NCBI GenBank assembly: GCA_028408025.1
Contig: JAOOKL010000014.1
Coordinates: 1-15,410 of the forward strand
DNA length: 15,410 nt
Direction of reading: 5' to 3'
Source of the DNA: Candidatus Pelagibacter sp.
GTDB taxonomy: Bacteria; Pseudomonadota; Alphaproteobacteria; Pelagibacterales; Pelagibacteraceae
Shown: one piece after another, positions 1 through 15,410 of the stretch
Layout of the letters: each line of letters starts with the position of its first letter
Position numbering within the stretch: position 1 is the first letter of the stretch
Program-made: the position numbers and the translations under genes
The notes under the pieces: generated by a model
What the model was told of the DNA's origin: nothing
Database searches by the model: none
Seen by the model: the letters and a program-made list of their open reading frames with translations, nothing else

Positions 1-833
1 AAATTAGTAAATCAATTACTGTCTTTGATAAATCAAAAAATGTTATTGAAACTATTAAGAAAGAAAATTTGTGTGACAACATTTCTAAAGATATTCAAAC
101 TGCAGTTAAAGACTCAGATCTAATCATTCTTGCTATTCCTCTTAGTTCTTACAAAGAGGTTCTATTGTCTACAAAAGACATATTAAAAAAAGACACTATT
201 GTTACCGATACTGGTTCGGTAAAAAAAGAAGTAAATAAAATATTTGAAAATTTAAATTTAACAAATATTTCCTGGATCCCCTCTCATCCGATTGCAGGAA
301 CCGAGGAAAGTGGTCCATCAGCTGGGTTTAAAGATTTATTTAAGAATAGATGGACAATTATTTGTGACAGCAAAAACTCAAACAAAGATAAAGTTGAAAA
401 ATTAAAAAAATTCTGGGAATTTTTAGGAAGCAAGGTAAAATTAATGAGTAACGACGAACATGATCATATACTTGCGCTAACAAGTCATTTGCCTCATGCA
501 GTAGCGTATAATATTGTAAAAACAGCGATTAATAATGACCAAAAGTTCAGAGATGAAGTTATCAAATATAGTGCTGGGGGTTTAAGAGACTTTACTCGTA
601 TAGCATCTTCAGATCCGTTAATGTGGAGAGATATTTTTATTGATAATAGCGAAAATATTTTGAAGATTTTAGATGAATTTTCTAAAAATATTGATGATTT
701 TAAAAAAGCTGTTGTTGAAAAAAATGGTGACAAACTTTTAAAAATATTTGCTTCTACTAAGAATGTAAGAAAAGAGATTATTAAAGCTGGACAAGACGTA
801 GAGTCCCCTGACTTTGGAAGAAAAAAAAATTAA
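1..833 (+). CDS. tyrA: Prephenate/arogenate dehydrogenase, 5'-truncated by window edge
   Basis: TyrA oxidatively decarboxylates prephenate (or arogenate) with NAD(P)+ in the cytoplasm, the step leading to tyrosine. The reading frame is open from base 3 through the TAA at 831-833, so the gene begins left of the window. The TTG at 69 is internal and not the start, because coding sequence (ISKSITVFDKS...) continues upstream of it. The N-terminal GxGxxG nucleotide-binding loop is therefore outside the window. Visible family motifs are the end of the Rossmann fold (SDLIILAIPLSSY, TDTGSVKKEV), the catalytic HPIAGTEESGP block, SHLPHAVAYNIV, and the helical dimerisation domain with AGGLRDFTRIASSDPLMWRDIF. 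No ACT domain or chorismate mutase fusion is seen at the C-terminus. Its stop overlaps the convergent plsC stop in a shared TTAA. The family call is firm; prephenate versus arogenate preference cannot be read from the sequence. Confidence 0.93.
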   Translation, partial: ISKSITVFDKSKNVIETIKKENLCDNISKDIQTAVKDSDLIILAIPLSSYKEVLLSTKDILKKDTIVTDTGSVKKEVNKIFENLNLTNISWIPSHPIAGTEESGPSAGFKDLFKNRWTIICDSKNSNKDKVEKLKKFWEFLGSKVKLMSNDEHDHILALTSHLPHAVAYNIVKTAINNDQKFRDEVIKYSAGGLRDFTRIASSDPLMWRDIFIDNSENILKILDEFSKNIDDFKKAVVEKNGDKLLKIFASTKNVRKEIIKAGQDVESPDFGRKKN

Positions 834-1537
834 TTTAAATTATCAATAGAAGAGTAAATTTTTGTTTCTAAATCATTTATAAAAACATTTTTATCTTTTC
901 CAGGCTCTATCGGATCTAAGAAAGATATTTTAATGTCGTGATTATATTTAAAAAAACTATTTTTTGGCCAAACCTTGCCAGTATTTAATGCAACAGGAAC
1001 ACAAGGTAAATTTAATGCCTCGTAAATTCTACCAGCACCCTTTTTAAATGGTAGTCTTTCACCAAATTTCACTCTTGTCCCTTGAGGAAAAATTAATAAA
1101 GGTCTTTTACTAATTTCAATATTATTTTTGATTTTGTCAAAAAAATTCAAATTATCTTTTGTAGTAGTGTCTCGTACAATATCAATTGAACCAATTTTTT
1201 TTAAATACCAACCAAATAAAGGAATTTTCAAAAGCTCTTTTTTAAGAATAAATATGGGGTATTGCAACGGGGCTTGAAGAATAAATGTTTCAAGTAAAGA
1301 TTGATGTGCACTTGCAACAAAAAAACTCTCATTTTTTTTTAAATTTTCTATTCCAGAAAAAGTAACTTTAACACCTAAAATAAATCTTAATAAAAATATA
1401 ATTATATGAGCTAGTATCTTTCCGCATATAAGAGTAGCTTTACTTGGTAAAACTAATGTAGGTATAGCTAAAATAAAAACTAATATTAAGGTTAAATAAA
1501 ATAATATAGTAAATAAGATTGATCTTATAAATTGCAT
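830..1537 (-). CDS. plsC: 1-acyl-sn-glycerol-3-phosphate acyltransferase (PlsC-like)
   Basis: This 235-residue protein is predicted to acylate lysophosphatidic acid to phosphatidic acid at the inner membrane, the second acylation of phospholipid synthesis. Residues about 7-30 are a strongly hydrophobic membrane segment, and about 38-54 form a second hydrophobic stretch. The acyltransferase motif I is H78-Q-S-L-L-E83, so it is HX4E where the textbook motif is HX4D; the E form is common in alphaproteobacterial PlsC-like proteins. The glycerophosphate-binding motif is FPQGTR (150-155), with Q in place of the usual E, followed by FKKGAGRIYEA and the PCVPVALNTG block. The ATG (1537-1535) shares one base with the lysA stop (TAATG), so the two are probably translationally coupled. 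It is the last gene of the argH-lptM-lysA-plsC run. Another lysophospholipid or ornithine-lipid O-acyltransferase of the same superfamily remains possible. Confidence 0.85.
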   Translation of the reverse strand: MQFIRSILFTILFYLTLILVFILAIPTLVLPSKATLICGKILAHIIIFLLRFILGVKVTFSGIENLKKNESFFVASAHQSLLETFILQAPLQYPIFILKKELLKIPLFGWYLKKIGSIDIVRDTTTKDNLNFFDKIKNNIEISKRPLLIFPQGTRVKFGERLPFKKGAGRIYEALNLPCVPVALNTGKVWPKNSFFKYNHDIKISFLDPIEPGKDKNVFINDLETKIYSSIDNLN

Positions 1538-2766
1538 TATTGGTTGAGCAAACTTTTTATATCCTGTTTTTTTCTTATTACTTTTGTTTTAGATTTATTG
1601 ATAATTATCTCAGCAATTAAAGGTTTTGTATTATAGTTTGAAGACAAAGATGCTCCGTAAGCCCCAACATCTGATATAGCGACATAATCAGATTGGTTAA
1701 GCCTTTGATAATTATTATATTTAATGAATCTACAAGTTGTTTCACATATTGGTCCAACAAATTCCAAAGGACCTTTATTTTTTTTACCATTCTTAATTAC
1801 TGGAATAATATTATGAACGGCATCATAAAGTGCGGTTCTCATAAAGTCATTCATACCAGCATTTAGAATCGCAAATGTTTTATTGGAACCTTTTTTAAGA
1901 TATTGAACTTTAGTTACTAAAATAGCTGTATTACCTAAAATTGCTCGCCCAGGTTCAAAAATAATACTGCAATTATATTTTTTTTTAAATTTTTCCACCA
2001 AATTTGAGTAGTTTTTAAGACTCATTTTTCTATCACTTTTTTTATAAGTAATACCAAAACCGCCACCAAGATCTACATACTTGAAGTAAACTTTTGTTTT
2101 TTTTATAACTTCCTCTAAAACTTTTAAAGTTTTTTTAAAAGGATTTTCACTTAATATTTGACTCCCAATATGCACACTTATTGCTTCGAGTTTCAAATTT
2201 TTTAATTTTCTAACATTAAGACAAAACGAAATTAAATTTGTTTTTGAGAGACCAAATTTATCTTCTGCCTTACCTGTGGAGATCTTTTTATGTGTTGGAG
2301 CGTTTATATCAGGGTTAATTCTGATACCAATGGCAATCTTTTTTTTTAAGTTACCTGCAATCTTATTAATCAATATAGCTTCGTTCTCTGACTCCACATT
2401 TATTAATAGAATTTTTTTTCTTATTGCTAATTTAATTTCATCTTCAGTTTTACCAACTCCAGAAAAAACAATTTTATTTGGTTTTATACCAGATTTAATA
2501 GCCTTAAGTAACTCACCTCCTGAGACTACATCTGCACCTGATCCCATTTTTTTTAAAACTTTTAAAATTTGAATATTTGAATTTGCTTTTACCGAAAAAC
2601 AAATTAACGGTTTAGATTTTCTGAAATTTTTTAAAAATGAATTGTAATTTTCAATAATACTACCCTCAGAATAAAGATAAAATGGCGTACTCAATTTTGA
2701 AGCTAAACTTCTAACAGAGACATTTTCCACAAACAGGTTATTATTTTTATATCTTATATAAGACAT
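1537..2766 (-). CDS. lysA: Diaminopimelate decarboxylase
   Basis: LysA is the PLP enzyme that decarboxylates meso-diaminopimelate to L-lysine, the last step of lysine synthesis, in the cytoplasm. The 409 residues match the usual family length. An alanine-racemase-like TIM barrel comes first, with the PLP Schiff-base lysine in FSVKANSN (K60), VHIGSQ (198-203), and the phosphate-binding GGGFG (234-238). It is followed by EPGR (271-274). The C-terminal beta domain carries the active-site CETT (341-344) and the SDVGAYGASLSSNYN segment that reaches the partner subunit in the dimer. The start ATG lies 3 bases after the stop of the small lipoprotein gene, and the stop overlaps plsC by one base, so co-transcription is likely. 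The placement beside argH and an LptM-type lipoprotein is the usual proteobacterial arrangement and supports the call. Together with lysC at the other end of the window it brackets the DAP pathway. Confidence 0.96.
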   Translation of the reverse strand: MSYIRYKNNNLFVENVSVRSLASKLSTPFYLYSEGSIIENYNSFLKNFRKSKPLICFSVKANSNIQILKVLKKMGSGADVVSGGELLKAIKSGIKPNKIVFSGVGKTEDEIKLAIRKKILLINVESENEAILINKIAGNLKKKIAIGIRINPDINAPTHKKISTGKAEDKFGLSKTNLISFCLNVRKLKNLKLEAISVHIGSQILSENPFKKTLKVLEEVIKKTKVYFKYVDLGGGFGITYKKSDRKMSLKNYSNLVEKFKKKYNCSIIFEPGRAILGNTAILVTKVQYLKKGSNKTFAILNAGMNDFMRTALYDAVHNIIPVIKNGKKNKGPLEFVGPICETTCRFIKYNNYQRLNQSDYVAISDVGAYGASLSSNYNTKPLIAEIIINKSKTKVIRKKQDIKSLLNQ

Positions 2767-2769
2767 ATA

Positions 2770-2880
2770 TTAAATTATTTTTGCAAAACTTTTATTTGAT
2801 CCTTGGTACTGAGGCTCTGATTTTTTTCCACAAGAACCTAACATAATCATTAACATAACAAGAGTAATTACAAATTTCAT
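2770..2880 (-). CDS. lptM: Small LptM-like lipoprotein between argH and lysA
   Basis: A 36-codon gene read MKFVITLVMLMIMLGSCGKK...FAKII. It has a charged start, a hydrophobic core (residues 3-14) and a lipobox L-G-S-C with Cys17 as the lipidation site, so the mature lipoprotein has only about 20 residues. The CGKK sequence after the cysteine resembles the CGQKGP signature of the LptM (YifL) family, which assists maturation of the LptD/LptE LPS translocon in the outer membrane. Members of this family are typically encoded immediately before lysA. The ATG overlaps the argH stop as ATGA and the gene ends 3 bases before lysA, so position and translational coupling support a real gene despite its size. 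The function is inferred from the lipobox and the neighbours; the tail is too short and divergent for a firm family match. Whether this organism makes conventional LPS cannot be judged here. Confidence 0.7.
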   Translation of the reverse strand: MKFVITLVMLMIMLGSCGKKSEPQYQGSNKSFAKII

Positions 2881-3190
2881 TTAAGTTCCTTTTTGTATTT
2901 TCTTATCATTTTTCTTATATTTCTTTCAGATGTTCCTCCGTAAGAATTCTTGGAATTCATAGAGTTTTTTACATTAAAAATTTTTAAAACACTATTATCT
3001 AAGTGCTTATAAAACTTTTGAATTTCATTTAAAGTTAACTCATCTAGATTTTTTCTATTTTTTTCAGCATAATTAACAATTTTTGATGATATTTTATAAG
3101 CATCTCTAAAAGATATCTTTTTATCTTTCACTAGGTAGTCTGCAAAATCTGTTGCTGTTGTAAATCCAGTTTTTGCCATTTTTAACATTC

Positions 3191-3197
<7 letters not shown>
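2877..3197 (-). CDS. argH: Argininosuccinate lyase, C-terminal fragment fused to 23S rRNA sequence
   Basis: ArgH cleaves argininosuccinate to arginine and fumarate. Only about the last 105 residues are present: RMLKMAKTGFTTATDFADYLV, then the helical C-terminal domain with SFRDAYKISSKIV, LTLNEIQKF and the terminal YGGTSERNIRKMI, which match the family's C-terminus closely. The full enzyme has about 460 residues. The catalytic region (including the GSSxMPxK signature loop) and the whole N-terminal part are missing. Upstream of about 3197 the DNA is 23S rRNA. The open frame happens to continue to an ATG at 3248, but residues encoded there (MVRGERPTKFVDSW...) are translated rRNA and not protein. 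The first in-frame ATG on the argH side is at 3188-3186. Its stop overlaps the lipoprotein start (ATGA). As drawn, the gene cannot make an active enzyme; a chimeric or deletion join is the likely cause. Confidence 0.88.
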
Positions 3198-3997
<800 letters not shown>

Positions 3998-4003
3998 TTA
4001 TGC

Positions 4004-4022
4004 ACAGAAAATAATTTTCTGT
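4004..4022. repeat. Short inverted repeat just 5' of 23S
   Basis: ACAGAAAATAATTTTCTGT is a near-perfect palindrome lying a few bases upstream of the mature 23S 5' end. In the transcript it can form a small hairpin. It may belong to the 5' side of the 23S processing region; the partner strand that would normally flank the 23S 3' end is missing from this window. Confidence 0.6.
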
Positions 4023-4042
4023 CTAAATTAAATTTTTATTAA

Positions 4043-4131
4043 ATGTTCATCTATTCGAACATTATAGATTGTTCATCTATTCGAACAATCGGATATAGAT
4101 ATTGTTTGATTGTCCTTACTGATGAACAATC
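4043..4131 (-). repeat. Three tandem hairpins in the 16S-23S spacer
   Basis: Three consecutive inverted repeats lie between the 23S 5' end and the boxA copy. Hairpin 1 is 4043-4062 (ATGTTC/GAACAT stem). Hairpin 2 is 4067-4090 (GATTGTTC/GAACAATC stem of 8 bp). Hairpin 3 is 4108-4131 (GATTGT/ACAATC stem, imperfect inside). Hairpins 1 and 2 share the identical 14-base centre GTTCATCTATTCGA, so one looks like a duplicated and slightly changed copy of the other. Hairpin 3 shows the same GATTGTTCATC run when read on the other strand. They would sit in the precursor RNA between tRNA-Ala and 23S. Roles in RNA processing or slippage-driven spacer variation are inferences. Confidence 0.7.
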
Positions 4132-4150
4132 AAAATTGATATTAAATATT

Positions 4151-4168
4151 TACAATTTAAAAAAGCTA
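4151..4168 (-). promoter_or_regulatory. boxA antitermination element in the 16S-23S spacer
   Basis: Read on the minus strand this is TAGCTTTTTTAAATTGTA, close to the bacterial rRNA boxA consensus (TGCTCTTTAACA followed by an AT stretch). An identical copy lies in the 16S leader at 6027-6044. The known arrangement in rRNA operons is one boxA in the leader and one between the last spacer tRNA and 23S, which is the arrangement here. It is expected to recruit NusB/S10 and Nus factors so that polymerase reads through the structured, untranslated RNA. Confidence 0.75.
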
Positions 4169-4178
4169 AAAGTGTCAA

Positions 4179-4254
4179 TGGTGGAGGATAGCGGGATCGA
4201 ACCGCTGACCTCCTGAATGCAAATCAGGCGCTCTCCCAGCTGAGCTAATCCCCC
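4179..4254 (-). tRNA. tRNA-Ala (anticodon UGC)
   Basis: A complete 76-nt cloverleaf on the minus strand. The acceptor stem GGGGGAT pairs with ATCCTCC (one G-U), followed by the discriminator A and an encoded CCA at 4181-4179. The D arm is TAGCTCAGCTGGGAGAG. The anticodon stem CCTGA/TCAGG holds the loop TTTGCAT, giving anticodon TGC. The T arm is GCGGTTCGATCCCGC. It is the second spacer tRNA, with 8 bases between it and tRNA-Ile, and is released from the rRNA precursor. Confidence 0.97.
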
Positions 4255-4262
4255 GTGAAAAA

Positions 4263-4339
<77 letters not shown>

Positions 4340-4367
4340 CTAAGCATTTATGAGACACTTTAATAAT

Positions 4368-4388
4368 AAGAAGAGAAATGAGGACGGC
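4368..4388 (-). other. 16S processing stem, 3' arm
   Basis: AAGAAGAGAAATGAGGACGGC on the plus strand is nearly the exact inverted partner of 6000-6020 on the other side of 16S (19 of 21 positions complementary). In the precursor RNA the two arms would pair and enclose 16S. This is the classic long stem cut by RNase III to release pre-16S. Confidence 0.8.
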
Positions 4389-4407
4389 CACATTAACTTA
4401 ATTTTTT

Positions 4408-4432
4408 AAGACCAAAAGAAATTTTTGGTCTT
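4408..4432 (-). repeat. 10-bp hairpin at the 16S 3' flank
   Basis: AAGACCAAAA and TTTTGGTCTT form a perfect 10-bp inverted repeat with a 5-base loop, ending six bases from the 16S 3' end. It lies inside the large processing stem and probably helps set the 16S 3' maturation site. It is not followed by a U tract on either strand, so it is not called a terminator. Confidence 0.65.
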
Positions 4433-4437
4433 CCTTA

Positions 4438-5913
<1,476 letters not shown>

Positions 5914-5999
5914 ATAACGGCGCACACTAGCTTTAATAACTTTATGGTAAATAAAGTTATTTTCGTTAAAGCGTGTACGACAATTTCTTTATTAACCTA

Positions 6000-6020
6000 G
6001 CCGTCCACACTTCTCTTCTT
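6000..6020 (-). other. 16S processing stem, 5' arm
   Basis: GCCGTCCACACTTCTCTTCTT on the plus strand is the inverted partner of 4368-4388 beyond the 16S 3' end. It lies between boxA and 16S, where the 5' strand of the RNase III stem is expected. Confidence 0.8.
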
Positions 6021-6026
6021 AAAATA

Positions 6027-6044
6027 TACAATTTAAAAAAGCTA
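6027..6044 (-). promoter_or_regulatory. boxA antitermination element in the rRNA leader
   Basis: The same 18 bases as the spacer copy at 4151-4168 (19 if the next base is included). They lie downstream of the candidate promoter and hairpin and upstream of the 16S processing stem. Exact conservation of the two copies in otherwise different surroundings supports a functional antitermination signal. Confidence 0.78.
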
Positions 6045-6066
6045 AGATTTTAGTTTAAAATCTACA

Positions 6067-6104
6067 CACCTCTGGCGCTGTTAAAAAATATACGCATAGA
6101 GGTG
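6067..6104 (-). promoter_or_regulatory. Leader hairpin upstream of boxA (boxB position)
   Basis: CACCTCT (6067-6073) and AGAGGTG (6098-6104) form a perfect 7-bp inverted repeat around a 24-base loop. In the rRNA direction it lies just after the predicted start of transcription and 22 bases before boxA, the position of the boxB hairpin in E. coli rRNA leaders. The equivalence is positional only. Confidence 0.45.
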
Positions 6105-6111
6105 AGCGCTG

Positions 6112-6139
6112 GTTTTATTACAAATTGGTCATAAGTCAA
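6112..6139 (-). promoter_or_regulatory. Candidate rRNA operon promoter
   Basis: On the minus strand TTGACT (6139-6134) is a good -35 box, followed after 16 bases by TAAAAC (6117-6112) as a -10 box. A 16-bp spacing is common in rRNA promoters. Transcription would start near 6105, just before the leader hairpin. The -10 match is moderate, so the exact site is uncertain. Confidence 0.5.
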
Positions 6140-6181
6140 GGCGTATATTGTACATAAAAGTAAGTAAATATAGGCATTTTT

Positions 6182-6211
6182 TTACCTTCTGCATTGCAAA
6201 CTTACTATAAT
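6182..6211 (+). promoter_or_regulatory. Candidate promoter of the M23 peptidase gene
   Basis: A perfect -10 box TATAAT lies at 6206-6211, with a weak -35 candidate TTACCT at 6182-6187 (18-base spacer). Transcription would start near 6218, leaving an untranslated leader of only about 11 bases before the ATG at 6229. No Shine-Dalgarno sequence precedes that ATG. Confidence 0.5.
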
Positions 6212-6228
6212 TTTTATAGAAAACAACT

Positions 6229-7572
6229 ATGGCGCTAAATCAATTTTTTTCTAAGATTTTCAAATTTTTCAAAAATTTTACGGTATTTGAAATTAATAAT
6301 AAGACCGTCGGCTTAAAATATTTTTTTTATTTATTATCGTTAGCTGTAATTTTGATTATTTTTATCTATTCATCAAATTTAGTCGATCAAAAAAATCAAG
6401 CAGAAAGTAAAAATTTTGACTCAGTTGTAAAAACTAAGGAATTTGCAAATTTAAGTGAATTTTTTGTGTCAAAAATTAATAGTCCCTACAAAGAAATTAA
6501 ATATTTGATTAAGAATAACGACTCGGTTGAAAAGATACTTAAAAACCTTGATATTCGTTCAAGTGATATAAAGATAATATCTACTAAATTAAAACAAGAA
6601 AAACTAACAAATATATATGCAGGCAGAAAACTTTCGGTCGTAATTAAAAAACTTGACGATAATTCAAATGCTCTAATAAATCTTTTATACCCAATTAATA
6701 ATACTATCAGTGTTGAAATTAGAAAAAGCCGAAATGACTTTATCGTTAAAAAGAATATTTTAAAGCTTTATAAAAAAGAAGTTGTAATTAAAAGTAAAAT
6801 AAAAAATAATTTGTATTCATCAGCTATAAACTCAGGTATAGAGCCGAATATTATTATTGAATTCGCAAGAATATTTGGTTTTGAAGTAGATTTTCAGAGG
6901 GACATTCGAAAGGGAGATTGGTTTGAAATTTTGTATGAAAGATTTGAAGACGATAATAACAAAGTACAAGATACAGGAAAAATAATCTATGCTTCGATGT
7001 TTGTAAATGGTGATGAAATAAATTTATATAATTTCAAAGATAATGATGACGATATTGGCTATTATGATATCAAAGGTAAAAGTATTGTTAAGTCTCTTAT
7101 GAAAACTCCTATTAACGGAGCCAGACTTTCTTCTTCTTACGGAATGAGAAAGCATCCTATTTTGGGTTATAATAAAATGCATAGAGGCACAGACTTTGCA
7201 GCACCTAGTGGTACTCCGATAATGGCTTCTGGCTCTGGTACAGTTACAAGAGCTAGATGGTGTGGAGGTGGAGGTAATTGTGTAAAAATAAAACATAACT
7301 CAACATATGAAACTATATACGCACACATGAAAGGTTTTGCTCGAGGCATTAAAGAAGGTAGGAAAGTTAAACAGGGACAAATAATCGGTTATGTTGGTTC
7401 AACTGGAATGTCTACTGGCCCTCACCTGCATTACGAGGTTGTTGTTAATGGAAAAAAAGTGAACTCACAAAAACTTAAATTACCATCAGGAAAAATATTA
7501 AAAGGAAAATCTAGAGAAAATTTTGAATTAAAAAGAATTAAAATTGATTTAAAATTAGCTGAACTTAGATAA
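6229..7572 (+). CDS. Membrane-anchored M23 family peptidoglycan endopeptidase
   Basis: A predicted zinc endopeptidase of 447 residues that cuts peptide cross-links of peptidoglycan in the periplasm, during wall growth or division. A membrane segment at about residues 29-47 acts as an uncleaved anchor, leaving the bulk outside the cytoplasm. Residues about 85-280 form the extended N-terminal module found in MepM/YebA-type proteins, with a repeat-like IKYLIKNNDSVEKILKNLDI unit and IEFARIFGFEVDFQRDIRKGDWFEILYE. The catalytic LytM/M23 domain spans about 296-415. It keeps the metal ligands H318 and D322 (HRGTDFAAPSGTPI), the YAHM histidine H366, and HxH H399/H401 (GPHLHYEVVVNG). All key residues are present, so it should be active and is not an inactive EnvC/NlpD-type regulator. 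It is divergent from the rRNA operon and convergent with DUF4167, 23 bases away. Confidence 0.9.
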   Translation: MALNQFFSKIFKFFKNFTVFEINNKTVGLKYFFYLLSLAVILIIFIYSSNLVDQKNQAESKNFDSVVKTKEFANLSEFFVSKINSPYKEIKYLIKNNDSVEKILKNLDIRSSDIKIISTKLKQEKLTNIYAGRKLSVVIKKLDDNSNALINLLYPINNTISVEIRKSRNDFIVKKNILKLYKKEVVIKSKIKNNLYSSAINSGIEPNIIIEFARIFGFEVDFQRDIRKGDWFEILYERFEDDNNKVQDTGKIIYASMFVNGDEINLYNFKDNDDDIGYYDIKGKSIVKSLMKTPINGARLSSSYGMRKHPILGYNKMHRGTDFAAPSGTPIMASGSGTVTRARWCGGGGNCVKIKHNSTYETIYAHMKGFARGIKEGRKVKQGQIIGYVGSTGMSTGPHLHYEVVVNGKKVNSQKLKLPSGKILKGKSRENFELKRIKIDLKLAELR

Positions 7573-7595
7573 TACGATTGATCGGCGGTTAAAAA

Positions 7596-7958
7596 TTAAC
7601 TGGATGTTTGTGAAGAATCTTTATTCAACAAATTAGTTGAACTATTGTCCTTTTCATTTTTAATTTTGTCTTTATTTTTCTCATTTAATTCTGCAAGGCG
7701 TCTAGAGTAATGATCTGCATGTTGTAAATAATTTTCCACCATGACAGGGTCCCCGTTGCTTTGAGCGTCTTTTGCTAGTTGCTGAAATTTTTGTACCGTT
7801 TTCTCCACATTGTGCGGGTTGGTCATTGATCCATTTCTATTAAAATTTAGATTACCATTACTAAAATTTCCACTATTATTAATATGAGAACCGTTTCTTC
7901 TTCTAAAATTATTTTTTTGTTGTCTAGGCCTAAAAGTTCTTCTTCTATTGTTGTTCAT
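7596..7958 (-). CDS. DUF4167 family protein (Arg/Asn-rich N-terminus)
   Basis: A 120-residue basic protein of unknown function. Residues 1-45 are low-complexity and rich in Arg, Asn and Gly (NNNRRRTFRPRQQKNNFRRRNG...), suggesting nucleic-acid contact. Residues about 48-95 (NPHNVEKTVQKFQQLAKDAQSNGDPVMVENYLQHADHYSRRLAELN) match the helical DUF4167 domain typical of Alphaproteobacteria. The tail is acidic, Ser/Asn-rich and poorly conserved. It is usually encoded right after prfA-prmC, as here (25 bases after the prmC stop). That position and the basic tail suggest a role linked to RNA or ribosomes, but this is inference. It ends the lysC-ispG-prfA-prmC cluster. Confidence 0.85.
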   Translation of the reverse strand: MNNNRRRTFRPRQQKNNFRRRNGSHINNSGNFSNGNLNFNRNGSMTNPHNVEKTVQKFQQLAKDAQSNGDPVMVENYLQHADHYSRRLAELNEKNKDKIKNEKDNSSTNLLNKDSSQTSS

Positions 7959-7983
7959 AATTTTTTGATTATTTGTTATGATT

Positions 7984-8826
7984 TTATCTCTCTAACGTTG
8001 ATAATATACATCTAATATTTTCACCAAAGTCTTTAATTAAATATCTTATTCTAAAGTTATTTTTACCTAATATTTTTGAAACTTTTATAAATTGCTCATT
8101 TCCTATTTCTAAGGCGAGCATACCTTTAATTTTTAAGATACTTTTGGATTTGTAGATAACTTTTTTAATTACGTCAAGCCCATCATTTCCACCATCTAAG
8201 GCTAATTTAGGTTCAAATTTTTTTATGTCATCTTGAAGATTTTTAATGTCTTTTGTCTTTATATAGGGTGGATTTGATACAATTAGATCAAATTTGCGCC
8301 AGTAAATATCTTCTAAAGACTTCACCTGAAATTTAATACTATTAGATAGTTTTATTTTTTTGAGATTTTGATTAGCTGTCTCTATTGCGTGACTAGATAT
8401 ATCTATACCTAATCCTCTAGCATTTTTTAACTCATTCAAAATACTTAATAATATACAGCCAGTCCCAGTGCCTACATCTAAAATGTAAATGTTTTTTTTA
8501 CTAAAGATATTGATGATTTTTTCTACCATTAACTCTGTTTCAGGTCTAGGTATTAAAACATTTCTATTAACAATAAAATTTTTACTCCAAAACTCTTTTT
8601 TTTTTAAAATATAAGCAACTGGTTCTTTAAAAGATCTTCTAGATATATTTTTTTGAAACTTTTTAGCATTATTTATACTGACTATTTCCCGCAGATTAAT
8701 TAACAATTCTTCTCTTTTCTTGTTCAACACATCCGAAAGTAAAATTTCAGAGTCAATCCTGTGAGAAATGATATTGTTAGCCTTTAATTTGATTGAACCA
8801 AGATTGATTAGTTGTAAAATATTCAT
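7984..8826 (-). CDS. prmC: Peptide chain release factor N5-glutamine methyltransferase
   Basis: PrmC (HemK) methylates the glutamine of the GGQ motif in release factors using S-adenosylmethionine, which raises termination efficiency. The 280 residues contain the N-terminal helical domain, the linker RPETE (about 94-98), the SAM-binding LDVGTGTGCILLSIL (about 116-130), the acidic GIDIS after strand 2, and the signature NPPYI (185-189) that holds the substrate glutamine. The start is taken as the ATG at 8826-8824. It shares its A with the prfA stop (TGATG), whereas the TTG one codon upstream would be a rare start. The one-base overlap with prfA couples the methyltransferase to its substrate's gene, the standard arrangement. 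Confidence 0.95.
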   Translation of the reverse strand: MNILQLINLGSIKLKANNIISHRIDSEILLSDVLNKKREELLINLREIVSINNAKKFQKNISRRSFKEPVAYILKKKEFWSKNFIVNRNVLIPRPETELMVEKIINIFSKKNIYILDVGTGTGCILLSILNELKNARGLGIDISSHAIETANQNLKKIKLSNSIKFQVKSLEDIYWRKFDLIVSNPPYIKTKDIKNLQDDIKKFEPKLALDGGNDGLDVIKKVIYKSKSILKIKGMLALEIGNEQFIKVSKILGKNNFRIRYLIKDFGENIRCILSTLER

Positions 8827-9899
8827 CAATTTAAATTTTTTAGTTTTATATCTTGTTCTTTTAATCTTAACTCATGATTCATCTCCTCATGAATTTCACC
8901 TGTTAGGAATTCATCTAACTTGTGTAAGGTTAAATTAATTCGATGATCAGTGACCCTACCCTGGGGAAAATTATATGTTCTTATCCTTTCGGATCTATCT
9001 CCAGTTCCGATTTGATTTCTTCTATTTGTTGATCTTTCTTGATCTTTTTTTCTTTTTTCTTCTTCATATACTCTAGAACGTAATATTTTAAGTGCTTTAG
9101 CTTTATTTTTATGTTGAGACTTTTCATCCTGCTGACTTACAACGACCCCGGACGGTAAATGAGTGATTCTAACTGCACTATCAGTAGTATTTACAGACTG
9201 GCCTCCCGGACCACCAGCTCTAAATACATCTATTCTTAAATCTGAGTCTTTTATTTGGACGTCTACTTCTTCTGCCTCAGGTAAAACGGCTACTGTAGCT
9301 GCTGAAGTGTGAACTCGACCTTGAGTTTCAGTTTTGGGGATTCTTTGGACTCTATGAACGCCTGACTCATATTTTAAATAAGAATATATATTTTCACCAC
9401 TCACAGAAAATATTACTTCTTTAAAACCGCCAGCTTCACTTTTAGAAATACTAATTATTTCAAGCTTCCATTTTTGTTTTGAACAAACCTTTTCATACAT
9501 CTTAAATAAATCTGAACAAAATAGAGAAGCTTCTAAACCTCCAGTTCCAGCTCTAATCTCTACAATAGCATCCTTATCGTCATCTTCATCTTTGGGTAGT
9601 AAAAAAATTTTTAATTTATTCTCATAATCTTCTTTTTTAATTTTTAAGGTGCTAAGGTCTTTTTGAGCCAATTCAATTATTTCTGTATCACTGCTTTTAT
9701 CTTTTAAAATTTGCTCTAAATCTTTTTTTTCTTTTTCAAATTTTATATACTCTCTGGCGATAGAAATAATATTTCCTAAATTTGAATAATCTTTTGATTT
9801 TTTCGCAAAAAGCTTAGGATCAATATTGCCTGAAGAAAGTTCTTTTTCTAATTCGTCATGTTTAGCAATTATGTCTTGCACTTTTTCAACAGGTATCAT
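8826..9899 (-). CDS. prfA: Peptide chain release factor 1
   Basis: RF1 recognises UAA and UAG in the ribosomal A site and triggers peptide release. The 357 residues match the usual length of about 360. After the N-terminal helical domain come the [11 protein letters not shown] block (117-127) and the anticodon-like loop [27 protein letters not shown]. The stop-codon PxT motif there is P188-K-T190, where E. coli has PAT; the middle residue varies in this family. The catalytic GGQ is at 232-234 in [21 protein letters not shown]. PxT rather than SPF marks it as RF1 and not RF2. The ATG is three bases after the ispG stop and the TGA overlaps prmC. There is no sign of a frameshift of the RF2 type. 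Confidence 0.97.
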
Positions 9900-9902
9900 T
9901 TT

Positions 9903-10997
9903 TTAAATATTTTTTTCTCTAACTTTTTCTTCTACAAGTTGAACAACTTTGTTTATGATCTCTGCACTAGCTACTTTAGTATGAGGGATGCCTGATAGAT
10001 AAAGAAGATTATTATCTTGTCCTCCTCCAGTTAAACCAATTTCAGTTTGTGAAGCCTCGCCAGGGCCATTAACTACACATCCTATTATAGAGAGTGTTAT
10101 TGGCTTTTTAACATGAGATAGTCTTTTTTCTAGTTCTTTGACAGTTTCAATTACCGGAAAAGCTTGCCGAGCACATGATGGACAAGAAATTATATTTACC
10201 CCTCTTGATCTAATACCTAATGATTTTAATATTTCATATCCTGCTTTAACTTCGTCTACAGGGTCTGATGAAAGAGAGACTCTAATTGTGTCTCCTATTC
10301 CTTCCATTAAAAGTTGACCAATACCTATTGATGATTTTATGCTTCCAGTCAAAAGTCCACCTGCCTCTGTTATTCCGAGGTGTAAAGGGTAATCACAAAT
10401 TTCAGATAGCTTTCTATAAGATTTAACTGTCAAAAAAATATCAGAGGATTTGACGCTAATTTTAAAATTAAAGAAATTGTTATCCTCCAGTAATTTTACA
10501 TTATACATTGCACTTTCGACTAATGCTTCCGGACAAGGTTCTTTATATTTTTCAAGCAAAGTTTTATCAAGTGATCCAGCATTAACACCAATTCTTATAG
10601 TACAATTATTGTCTTTAGCAGCTTTTACAACTTCTAAAATTCTATCTTTAGAACCAATATTACCTGGATTTATCCTTAAACAGCTTGCACCCATTTCAGC
10701 TGCCTCTATAGCTCTTTTATAATGAAAATGAATATCTGCAACAATTGGAACTTTTACATTTTTAACAATATCTTTAAGAGCTTTAGTACTATCTTCATCT
10801 GGACATGAAACTCTTACAATATCTGCGCCTGCTTCTTCCAAAGAATTAATTTGATCAATTGTATCTTTAATATTTGTTGTAAGAGTATTAGTCATTGATT
10901 GGACGCTTATATTAGAGTTGCCTCCAACTATGACTTTACCTAGTTTTATGGATTTTGTTTTTCTTCTATTAATTATTCTATGCGGTCTAATTTCCAT
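9903..10997 (-). CDS. ispG: 4-hydroxy-3-methylbut-2-en-1-yl diphosphate synthase
   Basis: IspG (GcpE) reduces 2-C-methyl-D-erythritol 2,4-cyclodiphosphate to HMBPP in the penultimate step of the MEP pathway of isoprenoid synthesis, using a [4Fe-4S] cluster and flavodoxin or ferredoxin as donor. The 364 residues are the normal length for the two-domain bacterial form. The TIM-barrel part has [31 protein letters not shown] and LRINPGNIG. The cluster domain has C272 and C275 ([10 protein letters not shown]) and C307 with E314 ([10 protein letters not shown]), which together are the four cluster ligands. The gene sits one base after the lysC stop and three bases before prfA, so it is part of the same transcription unit. 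Its product pathway feeds the quinone side chain that UbiG modifies. Confidence 0.96.
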
Positions 10998-10998
10998 A

Positions 10999-12210
10999 TT
11001 AATCTAGTTCAAAAATTGTATGCAATTTTTTAATCGCATTAGTAGTATCATGTTCATTAATAATAACTGATAATTTTATCTCAGAGGTAGAAATTGCTAA
11101 AATATTAATTTTTTCCTCTGCTAAACCTTTAAACATTTTATATGTTACCCCAGGTGTAGAAACCATGCCAGCCCCCACTATTGAAACTTTTGAAACTTTA
11201 TCATTATGGCTAATGTCCTTGTATGTAATATTTGTATTGTTTTTAATTATTTTAATGGTTTTTAAAAGGTCCTCTCTTTTTATTGTAAAAGTTATATCTG
11301 TAGTTTTTTGATCTGATGATATATTTTGAATTACCATATCAACGTTAATTTGATTACTACTTAAGGGTTCAAAAATACTAGCAGCGACACCTGGTTTATC
11401 CTGAACATCTCTTAAAGTAATTTTAGCATCATCTTTTGAATAAGCCACTCCGGTAACACTTTTAGAATAATCAATATTTTCTTGACTAAATATTTTTGTA
11501 CCCGGCCTGTCAGTAAATGTCGATTTTACTTCTAAAGGTATATTATACATCATAGCAGTTTGTACGGCTGAAGATTGCATAACTTTTGCTCCAAGTGAGG
11601 ACATTTCTAACATTTCATCAAATGAAATTTTATCAATTTTTTTGGCTACTGGTATCTTATTTGGATCAGAAGAATATACACCATCAACATCAGTATATAT
11701 TTCACAAGAGTCTGTCTCAAATATTTTTGCAACTGCGACTGCTGTTGCATCTGATCCACCTCTGCCTGTCGTAGTCACATCTCCAAGTTTTGAAATACCT
11801 TGAAATCCAGGAATGATAACCACACCTTTATTAGATAAATATTCATTTATCTTTGTGACGCTTAAATTAATAATTCTTGCATTTGAATGTTCGCCTTCTG
11901 TCAGGATAGGTATTTGCCAATTCAACCATGATTTCGATTTTATTCCTAATTCAATTAGTGCGCCGGCTAATAATGCACAAGTAACTTGCTCTCCAGAAGA
12001 TAATAAAACATCAAGTTCTCTTTTATCAAAATCACTAGAAATATTTTTAGAATGTTCTATTAGCTCATTTGTCTTTCCGGACATAGCTGAAACAATTATG
12101 ATAAGTTGATTACCAGCTAATTGTTCTTTTTTAACAATATTTGCCACATGTAGGATTCTTTCAATAGTTCCTACAGAAGTTCCACCAAATTTTAATACTT
12201 TTTTTGCCAT
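10999..12210 (-). CDS. lysC: Aspartate kinase
   Basis: Aspartokinase phosphorylates L-aspartate with ATP, the committed step toward lysine/DAP, threonine and methionine. The 403 residues fit the monofunctional class. The kinase domain has KFGGTSVG (7-14), [32 protein letters not shown] (147-159) and [12 protein letters not shown] (172-183). Two C-terminal ACT domains, about 263-330 ([20 protein letters not shown]) and 342-400 ([19 protein letters not shown]), bind effector amino acids, so feedback inhibition by lysine and/or threonine is expected from the family. There is no homoserine dehydrogenase fusion. It is the first gene of the minus-strand run and is divergent from ubiG across the tandem-repeat region. 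No riboswitch is visible upstream; only about 83 bases separate the two starts. Confidence 0.96.
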
Positions 12211-12216
12211 TGTTAG

Positions 12217-12270
12217 AATTTAATATAATATAACTGAATTAATTTAATATAATATAACTGAATTAATTTA
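12217..12270. repeat. 24-bp tandem repeat in the lysC-ubiG divergent promoter region
   Basis: Positions 12217-12240 and 12241-12264 are identical 24-base units, followed by six more matching bases (12265-12270), giving about 2.25 copies. The unit contains TAATATAATATAACTG. TATAAT hexamers occur at 12224-12229, 12248-12253 and, just past the repeat, 12272-12277, all exactly 24 bases apart. The last lies about 16 bases before the ubiG ATG and is the best -10 candidate for it. A clear -35 box is not seen. The lysC promoter must lie in the same 83 bases on the other strand. Confidence 0.85.
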
Positions 12271-12293
12271 TTATAATTAATACTTAAAAAGAC

Positions 12294-13019
12294 ATGACTA
12301 CAATAAATAAAGAGGAAATTCAAAAGTTTTCAAATTTAGCCAATGAATGGTGGGATGTTAATGGCAAATTTAAACCTTTGCACATGTTTAATCCAATAAG
12401 AATTGAATACATTCTTGATGAAATTTCAAAGCATTTTCAAATAAATAGAAAAAGAAAAAATCTACTTCAAGATTTAGAGATATTAGATATTGGGTGTGGA
12501 GGAGGTTTGATAAGTGAACCCATGGCTTATCTAGGAGGTAATGTAACTGGTATTGATGCGGCAGAGAAAAATATTAAAGTTGCCTCTATTCATAGTAAAA
12601 AAAATAAACTAAAGATAAATTATTTACATAAGTCACCAGAGCAATTAAAAATTGAAAAGAAATTTGATATAATTTTAAATCTTGAAATAGTAGAGCATGT
12701 AAATGATCTGGATTTGTATCTAAAATCTTGTTCCAATCTGCTAAAAAAAAACGGCCTGATGTTTACAGCTACCATTAATAGAACTTTAATTTCTTACATT
12801 AAAGCAATCATAGGGGCAGAGTATATTTTAAGATGGTTGCCTATTGGGACCCACGACTGGAATAAATTTGTAAAACCAGAAGAATTGGAAAAAAAATTAT
12901 TTGATAAAAAATTTATAACTAAGGATCTAAAAGGACTTGAATTCAACCCAATCTTAAGAAAATGGAAAAGATCTGATAATCTATCTGTTAATTATATAAT
13001 TTGTAGTATCAAAAATTAA
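12294..13019 (+). CDS. ubiG: Ubiquinone biosynthesis O-methyltransferase
   Basis: UbiG is a class I SAM-dependent methyltransferase that performs both O-methylations of ubiquinone synthesis at the membrane surface. The 241 residues are of normal length. The family-specific N-terminus is NKEEIQKFSNLANEWWDVNGKFKPLHMFNPIRIEYI. The SAM-binding motif I is LDIGCGGGLISEPMA (64-78), followed by VTGIDAAEKNI with the ribose-binding D88. The later blocks NLEIVEHV, GLMFTATINRT and the GTHDWNKFVKPEEL segment are characteristic of UbiG. The ATG at 12294 has no clear Shine-Dalgarno sequence. The stop overlaps the convergent DUF1178 stop in a shared TTAA. A lysC/ubiG divergent pair is common in Alphaproteobacteria and supports the call. 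Confidence 0.95.
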   Translation: MTTINKEEIQKFSNLANEWWDVNGKFKPLHMFNPIRIEYILDEISKHFQINRKRKNLLQDLEILDIGCGGGLISEPMAYLGGNVTGIDAAEKNIKVASIHSKKNKLKINYLHKSPEQLKIEKKFDIILNLEIVEHVNDLDLYLKSCSNLLKKNGLMFTATINRTLISYIKAIIGAEYILRWLPIGTHDWNKFVKPEELEKKLFDKKFITKDLKGLEFNPILRKWKRSDNLSVNYIICSIKN

Positions 13020-13438
13020 TTATCTTTGTTAACCCAGGGTATGCTAAGTAGATCTATTCCCTCTTCCGCTAGCTCTTCTCTTTCTTCAGGTGTGGTTGTG
13101 CCATAGATGCTCTTTTTAGATTTTCTATCATAAAAAACTTCTCTTACTTTTTTACTGAATTTATCTCCAACAAATTCAAAATTTTTTTCAACGTGTTCTC
13201 TTAATTTAAGCAAGTTATTTCTTTGCTTAAGAGATTTATTGTCAAAAAGTGCTTCGTCTTCCTCTTTGAGTTTTGAACCAGAAATCATTGGAGCCATAAT
13301 TGATTTTTCAATTTTTTTTGAGGAACAAAAAATACACTCAAGTAATTTTTTTTTTTTCAATTTATCAAATTCATTTGAATTTGAAAACCAGCTCTCAAAT
13401 TCGTGATCATTTTCACATTTAAGATTATATTTAATCAT
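13016..13438 (-). CDS. DUF1178 family protein, putative zinc-binding
   Basis: A 140-residue cytoplasmic protein of unknown function. The N-terminus MIKYNLKCENDHEFESWFSNSNEFDKL, followed by CIFC and EKSIMAPMISG, matches DUF1178, a family widespread in Alphaproteobacteria. C8, H12, C35 and C38 could form a small zinc site, as in rubredoxin-like or FmdB-like regulators. The middle is charged and helical. The C-terminus VREVFYDRKSKKSIYGTTTPEEREELAEEGIDLLSIPWV contains the conserved Y/IxGxxTxEE and I.S.PW elements of the family. It starts 13 bases after the argJ stop, so the two are probably co-transcribed, and ends tail to tail with ubiG. No function should be inferred from the neighbours. Confidence 0.85.
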   Translation of the reverse strand: MIKYNLKCENDHEFESWFSNSNEFDKLKKKKLLECIFCSSKKIEKSIMAPMISGSKLKEEDEALFDNKSLKQRNNLLKLREHVEKNFEFVGDKFSKKVREVFYDRKSKKSIYGTTTPEEREELAEEGIDLLSIPWVNKDN

Positions 13439-13451
13439 ATTTATTTAATCC

Positions 13452-14756
13452 TTAGTTTCTATAATCAGCATTAATATCTATATAGTCGTGTGTAAAATCA
13501 CATGTGTAACATTCAAAAGCATCGTTTCCCAGTTTTAAATTTACCTCGATCATGACAGAGTCCCACTTCATGTAATCTTTTAATTTTTCCTCATTATAAG
13601 ACTCTGCTATTTTCCCATTCTCTGCAACAACAAAATCTCCTAATTTAATTTTTAGTTTTTTAAAATCAATTTCCTCTCCAGATTTTCCAACTCCCATGAT
13701 GATTCTTCCCCAGTTTGGGTCTTCTCCAGCAACAGCGGTTTTTACTAACGGGGAATTAGCAATTGAAAAAGCAATATTTTTTGCACTACTCAAAGACTTA
13801 GCATTAATTACTCTAACAGTTAAAAATTTTTTTGCTCCTTCTCCATCAATAACGATTTGTTGAGCAAGGTTTAGGCAAAGTCTTTTTAAACTTACTTCAA
13901 ATTTTTGTATTACTTTATCTGTTAAAGACAGATTGTGTCCAATTTTAATTGATTTAGTTGAAAATATTGAAACCATATCATTTGTAGATTGATCACTATC
14001 GACTGTTATAGCGTTAAATGAATTTGCAACCGCTCTTTTTAAAAGCGACTTAAGTAAATTTGAATTGATATCCGCATTTGTAAAAATAAAAGATAACATT
14101 GTAGCAAGATTTGGAGCAATCATTCCTGATCCCTTTGCGACTCCACAAATTTTAATTAATTCATCACCAACTATAATTTCTTCGTAAGCCACTTTTGGCC
14201 TTGTGTCTGTTGTCATCATTCCAGAAGCAATCTTTAGCCAGTATAATTTGTTGTGTTGACTTTTTAATTTTGAAACAAGATCTGGCAGAGCGTCTTTGAT
14301 CTGATCAACAGGGAACTGCTCTCCAATTACTCCCGTAGAGGCAAATATTAGATCTTTAATTTTAATTGTTTCAGAAGTGCCTTTGTCTGATTTTGACTCT
14401 CTAAGGGTTAAAATTCTCGATAGATTTTTAGCTAAAATATCTAAACTTTCTTTTCCTTGTTTGCCAGTAAAAGTATTTGCGTTTTTTGTATTAATTAATA
14501 GTCCTTTTATTAATTTTTTATGAGAATTATTATTCCATGCTATTGATTCTGAGATTATACTATTAGTGGTAGTTACTGAGGCGTAATTAGCTCCATCTTT
14601 AAAATAAAACAGAACTAAATCATCTCTGCCATTATTATATAGATCAGCTGAAGTGGCAGACATTTCAAGTCCTTCTATTTGTTTTAAATTTTGAAACTCC
14701 CCAATTTTCGACAATTTATTTTTAGAGCTTAGGAAGTTTTTTATGTTTATCGTCAT
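13452..14756 (-). CDS. argJ: Glutamate N-acetyltransferase / amino-acid acetyltransferase
   Basis: ArgJ moves the acetyl group from N-acetylornithine to glutamate, recycling it in arginine synthesis; bifunctional forms also use acetyl-CoA. The precursor cleaves itself between Ala and Thr of the conserved ATML, here A218/T219 in KGSGMIAPNLATMLSFIFTNADI, giving alpha and beta chains with T219 as nucleophile. Other family blocks are TTNS (63-66), INTKNANTFTGKQG (88-101), ASTGVIGE (139-146), MMTTDTRPK (180-188), AVNSFNAITVDSDQSTND-like (243-260), AGEDPNWGRIIMGVGKSG, and the terminal DYIDINADYRN. The length, 434, is slightly above the usual 390-410. The gene is divergent from secA with 44 bases between the start codons, a common alphaproteobacterial arrangement. 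Whether it is mono- or bifunctional cannot be told from sequence alone. Confidence 0.95.
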   Translation of the reverse strand: MTINIKNFLSSKNKLSKIGEFQNLKQIEGLEMSATSADLYNNGRDDLVLFYFKDGANYASVTTTNSIISESIAWNNNSHKKLIKGLLINTKNANTFTGKQGKESLDILAKNLSRILTLRESKSDKGTSETIKIKDLIFASTGVIGEQFPVDQIKDALPDLVSKLKSQHNKLYWLKIASGMMTTDTRPKVAYEEIIVGDELIKICGVAKGSGMIAPNLATMLSFIFTNADINSNLLKSLLKRAVANSFNAITVDSDQSTNDMVSIFSTKSIKIGHNLSLTDKVIQKFEVSLKRLCLNLAQQIVIDGEGAKKFLTVRVINAKSLSSAKNIAFSIANSPLVKTAVAGEDPNWGRIIMGVGKSGEEIDFKKLKIKLGDFVVAENGKIAESYNEEKLKDYMKWDSVMIEVNLKLGNDAFECYTCDFTHDYIDINADYRN

Positions 14757-14800
14757 AATTACTGTTTAATTTAGATTATAAATACATATATAGAAGTATA

Positions 14801-15410
14801 ATGAATGTATTTACAAGAACTTTTAGTAAAATATTTAAAAGCTCTAATCAAGTAGAATTAGATAAAACAAAGAATTTAATATTAGCCATTAACGATAGAG
14901 AGGGTTCAATAAGCTCTCTATCAGACGGAGAATTAAGAGAAAAAACATTAAACCTAAAACGATCATTAAAAGAAGGCAACTCTATTGATAATATTATTCC
15001 CGATAGTTTTGCATTAGTAAGAGAAGCGGCAAAAAGAACATTAGGAGAAAGACATTATGATGTTCAATTAGCTGGGGGAATAATTTTACATCAAGGAAAA
15101 ATTGCTGAAATGAAAACTGGTGAGGGTAAAACATTGGTTTCTACTTTACCAGCTTATTTAAATTCTTTAACTGGTAGAGGAGTTCATATTGTAACAGTCA
15201 ATGACTATTTAGCTAGAAGGGACTCTGAGTGGATGGGTAAAGTTTTTAATTACCTAGGTGTTTCAACAGGATGTATTACAAATGATTTGGAGGATATTAA
15301 AAGAAAGGAAAATTATAATAAAGATATAACTTACGCAACTAATAACGAACTTGGGTTTGATTATCTAAGAGACAATATGAAATACGAGCTTAGCGATATG
15401 GTTCAAAGAG
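14801..15410 (+). CDS. secA: Preprotein translocase ATPase SecA, 3'-truncated by window edge
   Basis: SecA is the ATPase motor that pushes unfolded preproteins through SecYEG. The frame opens at ATG 14801 ([15 protein letters not shown]...) and stays open for 203 codons to the window edge; the full protein has about 850-900 residues. Visible elements of the first nucleotide-binding domain are [58 protein letters not shown] with the Walker [31 protein letters not shown], and [10 protein letters not shown] leading into [17 protein letters not shown]. All match the SecA N-terminus strongly. The start is chosen because the methionine sits at the normal distance before LSD and no upstream extension is open in the 44-base gap to argJ. 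No strong Shine-Dalgarno is seen. Confidence 0.95.

Follow-up and report, generated by a model that had tools for sequence, protein, structure and literature searches.

Gene content of the window and the join within it

The window, the whole 15,410-nt stretch of DNA analysed here, is composed of two arms that meet inside two genes. Its minus strand encodes a 16S rRNA gene, tRNA-Ile, tRNA-Ala and then the first ~808 nt of a 23S rRNA gene, which ends there and is followed directly by the final 104 codons of argH. The features are as follows.

1..3197, left arm: prephenate dehydrogenase-like gene (cut), acyltransferase-like gene, lysA, small ORF and argH 3' end
2877..3197, minus strand: argH 3' part, the last 104 residues and the stop codon, with the first ~358 residues missing
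3191..3197: join, a 7-nt overlap TAGTTTT (minus strand AAAACTA) compatible with 23S and argH alike
3191..3998, minus strand: 23S rRNA gene, 5' part, ~808 of ~2751 nt, with the remainder missing
3191..15410, right arm, rRNA part: 23S 5' part, tRNA-Ala, tRNA-Ile and 16S
3191..15410, right arm, protein genes: M23-peptidase-like, prmC-like, prfA, ispG, aspartate kinase, ubiG, argJ and secA-like (cut)
4439-5912, minus strand: 16S, found with the two tRNAs and the start of the 23S

The 104-residue fragment is assigned to argH by TIGR00838, which it matches over profile positions 353-454 of 455 with 82.6 bits; the cut-off is 279.5, a shortfall expected of a fragment. The argH open frame is 463 residues long in 6/6 relatives inspected. 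The 5' end of the 23S rRNA gene at 3998 is an estimate from the Rfam match (3984 corresponds to model position 15), and the full gene measures 2751 nt in G059, G151 and G172, three genomes of the genus. In the left arm, the gene order of which is collinear with that of relatives, lysA scores above its curated cut-off and the prephenate dehydrogenase-like and acyltransferase-like genes score below theirs. The prmC-like and secA-like labels in the right arm are presumptive and reflect the appearance of the translations. Both arms align to G059 in a single piece, the right one (3191-15410) at 87.8% identity over 12.2 kb and the left one (1-3197) at 86.7%; each arm likewise forms one alignment with G151 and with G172 (81.8-88.4%). 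A promoter and terminator scan was set aside, with three promoter-like sites compared with 4.3 in shuffled sequences. The two overlapping terminator-like sites (shuffles 0.7, s.d. 0.7) are one hairpin inside the 23S on the plus strand and were not used.

When the window is aligned to its relatives, 23S homology begins at 3191 and argH homology ceases at 3197. Among 38 aligned named loci (L211-L248), the match ends exactly at 3197 in 26 and between 3181 and 3192 in 10; in two it ends at 2951, which is the end of the locus itself. Identity to the relatives is even right up to the break on both sides, and the whole window contains no N letters. When breaks were placed at random in the 23S and argH of G059, 0.046% of 300,000 such pairs shared at least 7 nt. 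Thus, the overlap is probably not due to chance and took part in making the join. A first-pass annotation had described both genes as broken at a single microhomology join. The alignments to relatives bear this out, and the coordinates that it gave (3186-3200, with the overlap at about 3190-3197) and its figure of 807 nt of 23S are correct to about one base.

The join itself, allowing up to three mismatches, is present in 0 of the 169 genomes of the genus, which are incomplete, with some stretches blanked, and may not include the window's closest records. The join pattern is likewise absent from genome_contigs and viral_contigs, where such close records may also be lacking. A phage origin was considered and rejected: 27 records of 'phages' match the window at 60-80% identity and, among the matches listed (five of the 27 records), only the 23S part matches.

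Arrangement of the 23S and argH loci in relatives

Within the same 169 incomplete genomes, the left arm is present in 135, the first part of the 23S in 85 and any 23S sequence in 101; pairs of loci located together were picked by eye from the match lists. The two loci share a contig in 18 genomes, and in all 18 argH is found on the 16S side of the 23S rRNA gene and is reversed in orientation compared with the window. The distance between the two loci ranges from 86,487 to 109,033 nt (median 98,324), values good to about 2-3 kb because several 23S matches are incomplete at their ends. Dropping DNA therefore cannot create the join, which is of the inversion type: one arm has been flipped, and this must reflect either an inversion of the intervening segment or a chimera. 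The 'deletion-type join' of the first-pass annotation is contradicted by this arrangement.

As in a normal SAR11 rRNA operon (16S - tRNA-Ile - tRNA-Ala - 23S), the window is regular through the first ~808 nt of the 23S, and six relatives have 16S, tRNAs and 23S in the same order as its rRNA part. Unlike the normal operon, the window has the argH 3' end and its neighbours replacing the rest of the 23S and the downstream DNA. No rRNA lies next to argH in six 3.3-kb loci around argH in relatives. According to excerpts of PMC4053759, HVR2, an island of about 50 kb in marine SAR11, has the 5S on one flank and the 16S and 23S on the other; the missing 3' part of the 23S would be expected to lead to HVR2 and not to argH.

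23S copy number and condition of the broken genes

The 23S rRNA gene is whole in 62 of the 101 genus genomes with a match and partial in 39. In 38 of these 39 the cut lies no more than 4 bases from a multiple of 500, which we take to mark stretches that were blanked or ended; unknown letters fill one such stretch, and the partial gene of G056 is cut at the contig end. In the parts shown for the 101 genomes, no 23S gene visibly runs into foreign sequence within its length. Such joins are therefore not common in these assemblies, a point against the chimera reading given below. Two full 23S copies were found in none of the 101 genomes, a count made on incomplete genomes with two candidates scored in each, and we know of no SAR11 with two rRNA operons. 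As far as seen, the argument of the first-pass annotation from a single rRNA operon thus holds.

A repeated 3' end of the 23S was seen in one genome (L298, G180:C23), where it lies at 5001-5167 with a second copy at 10109-10275 (167 nt, 99%), in direct orientation and 5.1 kb downstream. The interval between the copies encodes a radical SAM protein, whose B12-binding match falls below Pfam's cut-off, together with DUF6580 and TonB-receptor-plug proteins, and it contains an AdoCbl-II riboswitch. It may be a small island, linked to cobalamin, that inserted at the 3' end of the 23S; alternatively, the second copy could be an assembly repeat.

The reading frame of the argH fragment is open down to the stop codon. 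Its dN/dS against 19 relatives has a median of 0.119 (two of 21 loci were excluded because of gaps, N or stops), somewhat above the median among the relatives (0.078) and well within their range (0.018-0.334; 168 pairs). In the 23S part the window has one private change at an otherwise invariant column, and 34 relatives have 0-11. Neither half is decayed, and the possibility that they are old pseudogenes left by a real rearrangement was rejected. The join is recent, as an artefact would be.

Origin of the join

Very probably, the window is a chimeric contig in which two stretches, most likely of one SAR11 (Pelagibacter-type) lineage, were fused at a 7-nt microhomology, likeliest by multiple displacement amplification (MDA). 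The source is most likely a laboratory amplification or assembly artefact and not a living cell. The first-pass annotation had also named a chimera as the likeliest cause, a view supported by the overlap at the join, the inverted layout in relatives, the lack of decay and the absence of the join elsewhere.

A chimera of two SAR11 species, through metagenome mis-assembly or mixed cells, was the form first suspected, when the 16S-23S part was nearest to G003 and G007 (97%) and the left arm to G001 and others. In its favour, the nearest relative of the left arm is G001 (89.1%), which ranks only 9 on the right arm, and that of the right arm is G059 (85.2%), which ranks 7 on the left. Identity to the window is highest in G001, G151 and G172 on the left arm and in G059 on the right, and the ranks of the relatives on the two arms of the window correlate negatively (-0.26). 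However, such discordance is common: of 28 sequences compared, the window and 27 chosen genomes, just 7 keep one nearest neighbour across the two arms, and G059, G151 and G001 give similar correlations (-0.16, -0.31 and -0.33). With 169 genomes the suspicion weakened, with G059 nearest along the right arm and within the 80-89% group on the left. Because G059, G151 and G001 carry the window's own pairing of left-arm and right-arm types, the two arms fit a single lineage near these three, a fit that leaves one cell or one species unproven. An overlap of 7 nt is, in addition, short for the k-mer overlap of an assembler. We thus regard a fusion of two species as highly improbable; that both segments come from one genome is the favoured reading, not a proven one. 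Across the same 28 sequences, the nearest neighbours of the regions 1-3190 and 9903-14756 differ in 21, the pattern expected if marine SAR11 recombine often.

Within one lineage, a real inversion of ~98 kb with its ends in the 23S and argH would give exactly the geometry of the join, since flipping the segment between the loci in relatives produces it, and microhomology-mediated rearrangement happens in cells. The cell would have to be dying or just changed, or to hold a second intact 23S. Such an inversion would break what is apparently the only 23S gene, in a genus in which none of the 101 genomes with 23S sequence shows two full copies. It would also have used a break sharing only 7 nt, and it has left no decay in either half and no counterpart in the genus genomes searched. 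A real inversion is very unlikely, less probable even than the fusion of two species. A live SAR11 cell in which a ~98-kb inversion split both genes, and which retained a second intact rRNA operon elsewhere along with a second argH or outside arginine, deserves less credence again. Least probable of all is a contig that skips intervening DNA, by a deletion-type join or a closed gap, as the first-pass annotation had also proposed. The 23S and argH pieces do share one direction in the window, but the inverted layout in 18/18 relatives, with argH on the 16S side, speaks against it, as does the absence of any N in the window. The skipping of DNA is already contradicted, unless the layout differs in the window's own lineage.

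The preferred reading, a chimera, would proceed as follows. Two stretches that are ~98 kb apart and inverted in relatives would be brought together at the 7-nt microhomology, most likely during MDA of a single cell or of a low-input sample. A 3' end displaced from either locus (ending in AAAACTA if it came from the 23S strand, in TAGTTTT if from the antisense strand of argH) could anneal to the complementary bases in the other locus and be extended, and the chimeric molecule could then be amplified enough to enter the assembly. Among the best named relatives of lysA (L211-L247), 35 of 37 have AG- or AH- isolate names, which we take to be names of single-cell genomes; some titles say MAG.

Chimeras made by phi29 polymerase in MDA resemble the window in that two segments are joined inverted at a short complementary overlap. 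In excerpts of Lasken and Stockwell 2007 (PMC1855051), 406 of 475 MDA chimeras (85%) are inverted, junctions show complementarity of up to 21 nt, and the product contains about one chimeric junction per 22 kb. Overlaps peak at 6 nt and are mostly 5-8 nt in excerpts of Tu et al. 2015 (PMC4595205), a usual range that includes the 7 nt of the window. The two segments of the window are non-adjacent and each is collinear with relatives up to the join; their orientation is inverted relative to all 18 relatives, and the overlap is short and complementary.

Distance fits less well. According to the excerpted counts of PMC1855051, 337 of the 406 inverted chimeras join segments less than 10 kb apart, whereas those of the window are 86-109 kb apart in relatives; proximity is a common feature of MDA chimeras and not a required one. 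For segments more than 10 kb apart, the same source counts 69 inverted and 58 direct joins, about equal numbers, so that orientation cannot serve as a diagnostic at ~98 kb. At least 2 complementary bases are present in only 34.8% of these longer-range inverted joins in those excerpts, and the 7-nt overlap is thus less typical at this distance. We infer with high confidence that the chimera was made in vitro; given the poorer fit in distance, MDA is no more than the likelier of the possible routes, ahead of a step in library preparation or assembly.

For the genome concerned, the artefact reading means that the contig is to be split at 3191-3197 in curation, and that neither a loss of argH nor a truncated 23S is to be scored. 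The direction of a join such as this one needs comparison with relatives before the label 'deletion' is applied. The junction of 23S and argH is most likely not a real biological feature of this SAR11 lineage.
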